In this document: one piece after another, positions 16,811 through 16,956 of the stretch
Numbering within the stretch: position 1 is the stretch's first letter
How the letters are laid out: each line of letters opens with the position of its first letter
From: an uncultured Actinomycetes bacterium
Lineage (GTDB): Bacteria; Actinomycetota; Acidimicrobiia; Acidimicrobiales; RAAP-2
Assembly: GCA_903918025.1 (NCBI GenBank)
Contig: CAIXCS010000072.1
Location: 1-34,052, forward strand
Direction: 5' to 3'
Length of the DNA: 34,052 bases
Notes under the pieces: generated by a model
Told to the model about the DNA's origin: nothing
Databases searched by the model: none
The model's input: the letters and a program-made list of their open reading frames with translations, nothing else
Translations under genes and position numbers: made by a program

Positions 16811-16883
16811 GCTCTCAACGGTCGCTGCTTCCGGCCTACCGACACATGTTCAGCAACTTCAACGACCTACAGCACTGGCCGAG

Positions 16884-16956
16884 TGGGGACGGAGGGAGTC
16901 GAACCCTCACTGAAGGCGGTTTAAGCGCCCTGCCTCTGCCATTGGGCTACGTCCCC
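16884..16956 (-). tRNA. tRNA with anticodon UAA (Leu codon UUA) but class I-length variable loop
   Basis: A complete 73-nt cloverleaf is present. The acceptor stem GGGGACG pairs with CGTCCCC. The D arm is a three-pair GCC/GGC stem with loop CAATGGCAGA. The anticodon stem GGGCG pairs with CGCCT around loop CTTAAAC. The variable loop is TCAGT. The T arm is GAGGG-TTCGACT-CCCTC, and base 73 is A. CCA is not encoded. The anticodon is bases 16923-16921 (TAA), which reads the leucine codon UUA. The D loop with its A-G-A insertion and A73 are leucine-tRNA-like, but bacterial tRNA-Leu normally has a long variable arm of ten or more bases; this one has five. All conserved tertiary positions (T8, G18, G19, T54, T55, C56, A58) are intact, so it does not look like a decayed gene. 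Its amino acid is uncertain. Confidence 0.85.

Follow-up and report, generated by a model that had tools for sequence, protein, structure and literature searches.

A short-armed tRNA-Leu(UAA) that appears to take the place of the long-armed form in many Actinomycetota

The window, by which we mean the whole stretch of 34,052 nucleotides (nt) analysed here (contig CAIXCS010000072.1 of an uncultured Actinomycetes bacterium), contains a tRNA gene whose anticodon is that of leucine but whose variable loop has only five bases. ARAGORN called a tRNA-Leu(taa) at 16883-16956 on the minus strand of the window, and Rfam gave a full-length match to RF00005 at 16884-16956 on the same strand with a score of 58.5 bits (cut-off, 29 bits). 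A preliminary description, made from the sequence alone, had already placed a tRNA at 16884-16956; the gene is real, its strand is corrected to minus, and the 73-nt cloverleaf, the TAA anticodon, A73, the three-base-pair (bp) D stem and the five-base variable loop given there were all borne out. The sequence of the short tRNA-Leu(UAA) is GGGGACG UA GCC CAAUGGCAGA GGC A GGGCG CUUAAAC CGCCU UCAGU GAGGG UUCGACU CCCUC CGUCCCC A, in which the ten-base D loop is CAATGGCAGA, and its parts are located as follows.

16884..16956, minus strand: 73-nt gene for a class I-shaped tRNA-Leu(UAA), without an encoded CCA (ARAGORN; Rfam RF00005, 58.5 bits; kept in 22/25 family genomes)
16932..16947, minus strand: leucine-type D arm with a 3-bp stem, G10-C25, C11-G24 and C12-G23 (sequence; compensatory changes at 10-25 and 11-24)
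Within 16932..16947, minus strand: D loop of the same arm, C13 A14 A15 U G18 G19 C20 A20a G20b A21 (sequence)
16919..16925, minus strand: anticodon loop CUUAAAC (sequence; CUUAAA invariant in 25 homologues)
16921-16923, minus strand: anticodon UAA (sequence)
16909..16913, minus strand: 5-nt variable loop UCAGU, in which U48 would be expected to pair with A15 (5 nt in each of the 80 distinct class I leucine sequences)
16884..16884, minus strand: discriminator A73 (A73 in all class I and class II leucine sequences examined)

A class II tRNA has a variable arm of at least 10 nt and a class I tRNA a loop of 4-5 nt; with the 5 nt of UCAGU the window tRNA is of class I. Its D arm has A14/A15, GG and AGA as in class II tRNA-Leu, together with A9, C12-G23 and C13, which are marks of the class I form. 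Simple single-strand energy folding places the D and anticodon arms wrongly, and the support for the cloverleaf comes from the covariance model and from covariation. The setting is that of an ordinary chromosome: the gene is flanked by a gene with a weak match to a bacterial transcriptional activator domain and by one for an NlpC/P60 protein, and farther away lie genes for enolase and an Mfd-like protein (UvrB-interaction, CarD/TRCF and TRCF domains). No promoter- or terminator-like sites were found near the tRNA gene by simple consensus.

Conservation of the short form was examined in an alignment of 25 diverse homologues. All 20 stem pairs are formed in each of them (500/500 stem cells paired), the covariation score is 0.745 as against 0.205 for shuffles (0/500 shuffles reach 0.745), and double-change cells number 115 as against 28.6 in the shuffles. 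Compensatory stem changes, which the preliminary description had named as a check, were found in the D stem at pairs 10-25 and 11-24, and the short form has preserved many of its tertiary consensus bases across the phylum. The tRNA at 16884-16956 is neither decayed nor unique, and its conservation is far beyond chance. In a search of 41 genomes, the short UAA gene was identified, with 88-97% identity, in 22 of the family's 25 genomes, and a window-type tRNA was identified in another family at 88%. The anticodon was UAA in all copies from the family search. The lack of conservation in close relatives that had been named as an argument against the gene is not what was found. Other families of the order have tRNAs of the same short-armed shape with the anticodons UAG and CAA.

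The genome from which the window comes (G000; 2.19 Mb, 278 contigs, 41 tRNA genes) has class II genes for the remaining leucine tRNAs that it contains, those with the anticodons CAA, CAG and GAG. Among named records, its relatives are Acidimicrobiaceae and metagenome-assembled genomes of uncultured actinobacteria. A normal class II tRNA-Leu(UAA), the possible presence of which the preliminary description had raised, was not found among the tRNA genes of G000, which is 92% complete. A class II UAG gene was not found in G000 either; since the sister genome G002 has one, the probable reason is a gap in the assembly.

When the sample was widened to 397 Actinomycetota genomes, short-armed leucine tRNAs were present in 93, the anticodon being UAA in 75 genomes, CAA in about 20 and UAG in 5, so the group recognised in the preliminary description is real but extends far beyond one genome. 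For UAA, the only anticodon for which exclusion between the two forms was tested broadly, the short form was present in 75 genomes and the long form was matched in 164, although about three of the long-form matches seem not to be tRNAs; the overlap was 0 where about 31 would be expected; as related genomes are not independent, the hypergeometric value of ~1e-20 is not to be read literally. The isoacceptor concerned differs between genomes. UAA is short while CAA, CAG, GAG and UAG are long in G002 and G024; three genomes that each consist of one contig have UAG short and the other four long (G026), UAA short and the other four long (G433), or CAA and UAG short with CAG, GAG and UAA long (G030). 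These patterns are best explained if the short form replaces the long form rather than adding to it, one isoacceptor at a time.

The genome G512 carries short UAA and CAA forms, and G571 represents a second group placed by the RNA polymerase beta subunit. The RNA polymerase chains closest to that of G512 are from Mycobacterium tuberculosis, and those closest to that of G571 from Streptomyces; the families with the short form apparently include Mycobacterium. Named records with a short UAA tRNA include Nocardia farcinica, an Arthrobacter, a Coriobacteriia metagenome-assembled genome (MAG) and several actinophages. Several further records were observed alongside these. The Mycolicibacterium alvei plasmid pJCM12272 (196-609 of the extracted locus, L380) bears an accessory cluster of tRNA genes, where a class II tRNA-Leu(CAA) is succeeded by a tRNA-Leu(CAG) of class I shape; the gene table for this locus lists no tRNA there, and the table holds no RNA genes. 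Outside Actinomycetota, the gammaproteobacterial Vibrio phage phiKT1024 (196-273 of locus L375) encodes a tRNA-Leu(taa) that is likewise short-armed and shares the CCCAA..GGTAGAGGC D arm. One short-armed leucine-like tRNA with the anticodon UAA (G139, contig C360, 1997-2044) has C for U at position 33 (loop CCTAAAC). A Thermomicrobium match was rejected as a short tRNA-Leu, as it is a tRNA-Lys.

The bases needed by leucyl-tRNA synthetase (LeuRS) have been reported for Escherichia coli, where they are A73, A14, A15-U48, G18G19 and A20a, and where the sequence and folding of the variable arm are uncorrelated with leucylation (PMC9976931). None of the 53 distinct class I UAA copies has lost these identity elements: each has A73, AA at 14-15 and U48, and each has a D loop ending in GGCAGA or GGTAGA, by which G18G19, A20a and the D arm with a 3-bp stem are kept. 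Among the 80 distinct class I leucine sequences, U48 occurs in 78, with C48 in two and G15 in two; the exceptions fall among the class I CAA sequences, two of which (L239 and L240) have both changes. These two, from the Streptomyces-like genomes G571 and G600, have G15-C48 instead of A15-U48 and are possibly accessory copies with a differing leucine identity. Class I and class II leucine tRNAs have A73, A14-A15, U48 and a D loop ending in GGYAGA in common, whereas A9 stands against G9, C12-G23 against G12-C23, C13 against mostly G13, and a variable region of 5 nt against one of 13-18 nt. Because the identity bases of E. coli are retained and the arm is not among them, what has been kept is what is recognised and what has been lost is not. 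The premise of the preliminary description, that the long arm contributes to recognition by LeuRS, was thus right in that the arm is typical of bacterial tRNA-Leu but too strong in view of the missing correlation with leucylation in E. coli (PMC9976931).

If the tRNA were charged with another amino acid, such as isoleucine, UUA would be recoded or ambiguous. The meaning of UUA was examined in 125 reading frames matched between G013 (short UAA, 97% complete) and G035 (long UAA). The UUA codons of G013 face leucine in 54% of 130 aligned cases, as compared with 60-66% for other leucine codons; only one of the 130 faces UUA, and the aligned codons are mostly CTG and CTC. In the genes of the window, UUA occurs 13 times in 8204 codons, and leucine is the consensus in 7 of 11 aligned UUA columns. 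Recoding of UUA was rejected on these grounds, and UUA, as judged from such alignments, is leucine in these genomes, with occasional misreading possible. Two observations favour a different amino acid: isoleucine accounts for 14% at UUA columns but 6-8% at other leucine codons, and the class I tRNA nearest to the short form in G000, at 76% identity, is one with a CAT anticodon, probably tRNA-Ile2. The excess of isoleucine may, however, be a mere exchange of similar residues at less conserved sites, and leucine is by far the commonest residue there. The D arm and the Levitt pair are moreover of the leucine type, while the CAT tRNA has four base pairs in its D stem and is without the extra base in the D loop. 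In one family, designated f81, the short gene is orthologous to a class II tRNA-Leu(UAA) at a single locus. Descent from the CAT tRNA was rejected on the D arm, the Levitt pair and this same-locus orthology. Charging with another amino acid is very improbable. ARAGORN and Rfam, used in place of isotype models, also gave no indication of the decayed tRNA or tRNA of another class that had been considered as a way in which the preliminary description could be wrong; the nearest class I tRNA differs by its 4-bp D stem.

Equally slight is the chance that the gene functions outside translation, in cell-wall or lipid aminoacylation or in regulation, or that it is a pseudogene. The shape is unusual for the anticodon, and short leucine tRNAs also occur in phages and in the accessory tRNA cluster of a plasmid, which might suggest such a role. 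Against this, UUA is in use in the genomes with the short gene, and no other tRNA-Leu(UAA) was found in them; every stem and many of the tertiary consensus bases have also been preserved across the phylum.

Family f81 has both forms of tRNA-Leu(UAA) within single genera. The two agree in the acceptor stem (GGGGGCG, CGCCCC), are identical or almost identical in the T arm, differ mainly in the D arm and variable region, and adjoin the same upstream neighbour gene, which presumably encodes a pyruvate kinase (RTKIVATLGPATSS). In a tree of this neighbour gene, a long open frame, the starred branches force at least five switches between the forms; one example is that of the well-supported sisters G612 (short) and G631 (long). 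Contamination of MAGs as the source of the mixture was rejected because the gene used for the tree shares a contig with the tRNA.

How the two forms came to alternate is a separate matter, and both histories that we consider are compatible with a leucine tRNA that lost its arm. At somewhat less than even odds, two old allelic lineages have been recombined between strains, with the short form perhaps having arisen once and having spread to UAG and CAA by anticodon change. The long forms of f81 share similar variable arms and its short forms are mostly CAGT-like, as expected of two alleles, and a tRNA tree of all columns unites the class II sequences (support 95), which would suit a single lineage of short forms. 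Separate conversions are favoured if the core columns are omitted: short UAG is then placed with long UAG, CAG and GAG, and the short UAA and CAA forms with their long counterparts (0.946 and 0.976). These alignments have at most 70 columns, which is too short to settle the origin of the UAG and CAA short forms, and tuning of the anticodon arm could mimic the second result. A more speculative proposal, and one that we hold to be rather unlikely, is that the arm of bacterial tRNA-Leu is labile, the resident gene being converted between class II and class I repeatedly within genera by a coordinated change of core and arm, perhaps favoured at times by tRNA-targeting toxins or by phage factors that bind long arms.

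The synthetase was considered as a cause of the short form. The LeuRS of G000 is an ordinary bacterial LeuRS, most like 1h3n (the Thermus enzyme). It has kept its C-terminal domain but has no leucine-specific insertion ahead of the KMSKS motif. This insertion is lacking from LeuRS in part of the order (L196 of G000 and its relatives), a pattern unrelated to the shape of the tRNA. By profile coverage, G033 and G035, which have no class I tRNA, also lack it, and G026 and G030, which have class I forms, appear to keep it. In f81, only 1 column of LeuRS separates short-form from long-form genomes, as compared with a mean of 2.1 after relabelling, and the six compared pairs are 75-86% identical. 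A change in LeuRS was rejected as the cause because the insertion does not track the tRNA form.

Taken together, we put at roughly 90% the probability that the short tRNA is a genuine leucine tRNA for UUA that has lost its arm, has had its D-arm core rebuilt, and replaces the long form at the level of single isoacceptors. It would descend from a class II tRNA-Leu(UAA) through loss of the long variable arm, this being the probable usual direction of change, and its core would have been rebuilt to match, with G9 becoming A9, G12-C23 becoming C12-G23, G13 becoming C13, and a CAGU-type variable loop of 5 nt. The ordinary LeuRS of the cell would charge it by reading A73, A14, the A15-U48 Levitt pair, G18G19, A20a and the elbow, and since the arm would not be among the features read, the change in shape would be tolerated. 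The charged tRNA would read UUA and, by wobble, probably UUG, the short form thus taking over one isoacceptor slot while the other leucine isoacceptors keep their arms. Of the three options in the preliminary description, the arm-less tRNA-Leu is strongly supported by the identity elements, the mutual exclusion with class II tRNA-Leu(UAA), the same-locus orthology in f81 and the use of UUA at leucine positions, and miscoding and use outside translation are disfavoured; as most likely an ordinary leucine carrier, the short form is less strange than those alternatives.

Several points weigh against this interpretation. Charging with leucine, the tertiary contacts of the core and any selective reason for the short form are inferences. 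G000 is incomplete and also without a class II UAG, so that its own leucine set is no closed census. The related genomes in the exclusion count are non-independent samples, 158 of the 397 genomes fit neither UAA pattern, and Streptomyces-like genomes hold class I CAA alongside class II UAA. With the patterns used, the family genomes G003, G014 and G019 show neither form of tRNA-Leu(UAA); two of these are 93-95% complete.

According to textbooks, tRNAs fall into two classes by the variable arm, and bacterial tRNA-Leu belongs to class II. Many families of one phylum seem to break this rule, one isoacceptor at a time, and it is of real interest that a structural class taught in textbooks should be labile. 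Sister genomes with both forms at one locus offer a natural experiment on the function of the arm in near-identical backgrounds, in which recognition and editing by LeuRS, discrimination against SerRS and other synthetases, binding of EF-Tu and targeting by toxins could be compared. Short tRNA-Leu genes may be mislabelled by isotype models that depend on the arm.

The preliminary description was uncertain whether this group had been described. Isolated cases are in print or annotated, whereas no account of a phylum-wide, isoacceptor-by-isoacceptor replacement or of switching between forms was found in the open-access literature; subscription literature may hold one. In the part of a review of non-canonical tRNAs that was available (PMC7609411), no bacterial class I tRNA-Leu was found. 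A short-variable-loop tRNA-Leu(TAG) in an accessory tRNA cluster of strains of the Mycobacterium mucogenicum clade was noted in passing in 2019 (PMC6582537); it resembles the window tRNA in its leucine anticodon, short variable loop and phylum, but occurs there in addition to a normal isoacceptor with a long arm, whereas the window tRNA is the only one found for UUA. The tRNA-Leu set of M. tuberculosis (2024, PMC11541572) probably corresponds to that of the Mycobacterium-like G512, with its short UAA and CAA, although the short forms are not discussed in the available portion of that paper. Phage genes for tRNA-Leu(taa) (Mycobacterium phage Kykar, Rhodococcus phage Trina and Streptomyces phage Genie2) have the same short-armed shape and D arm and are annotated as tRNA-Leu in the deposited records, but they are supplementary, unlike the resident isoacceptor of the host. 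Human mitochondrial tRNA-Leu(UUR) likewise has no long arm and is nevertheless recognised by a LeuRS, with A73 and A14 as the main determinants (PMC9976931), but it is mitochondrial and has a weak anticodon stem, whereas the short form is bacterial, fully paired and present beside long-armed sister isoacceptors. A further close relative is bacterial class II tRNA-Leu, which shares A73, A14, A15-U48, G18G19, A20a, the 3-bp D stem with its AA..GGYAGA loop and the anticodon UAA, and which is represented by the orthologue in f81; it differs by its arm of 13-18 nt, G9, G12-C23 and mostly G13, where the short form has 5 nt, A9, C12-G23 and C13.
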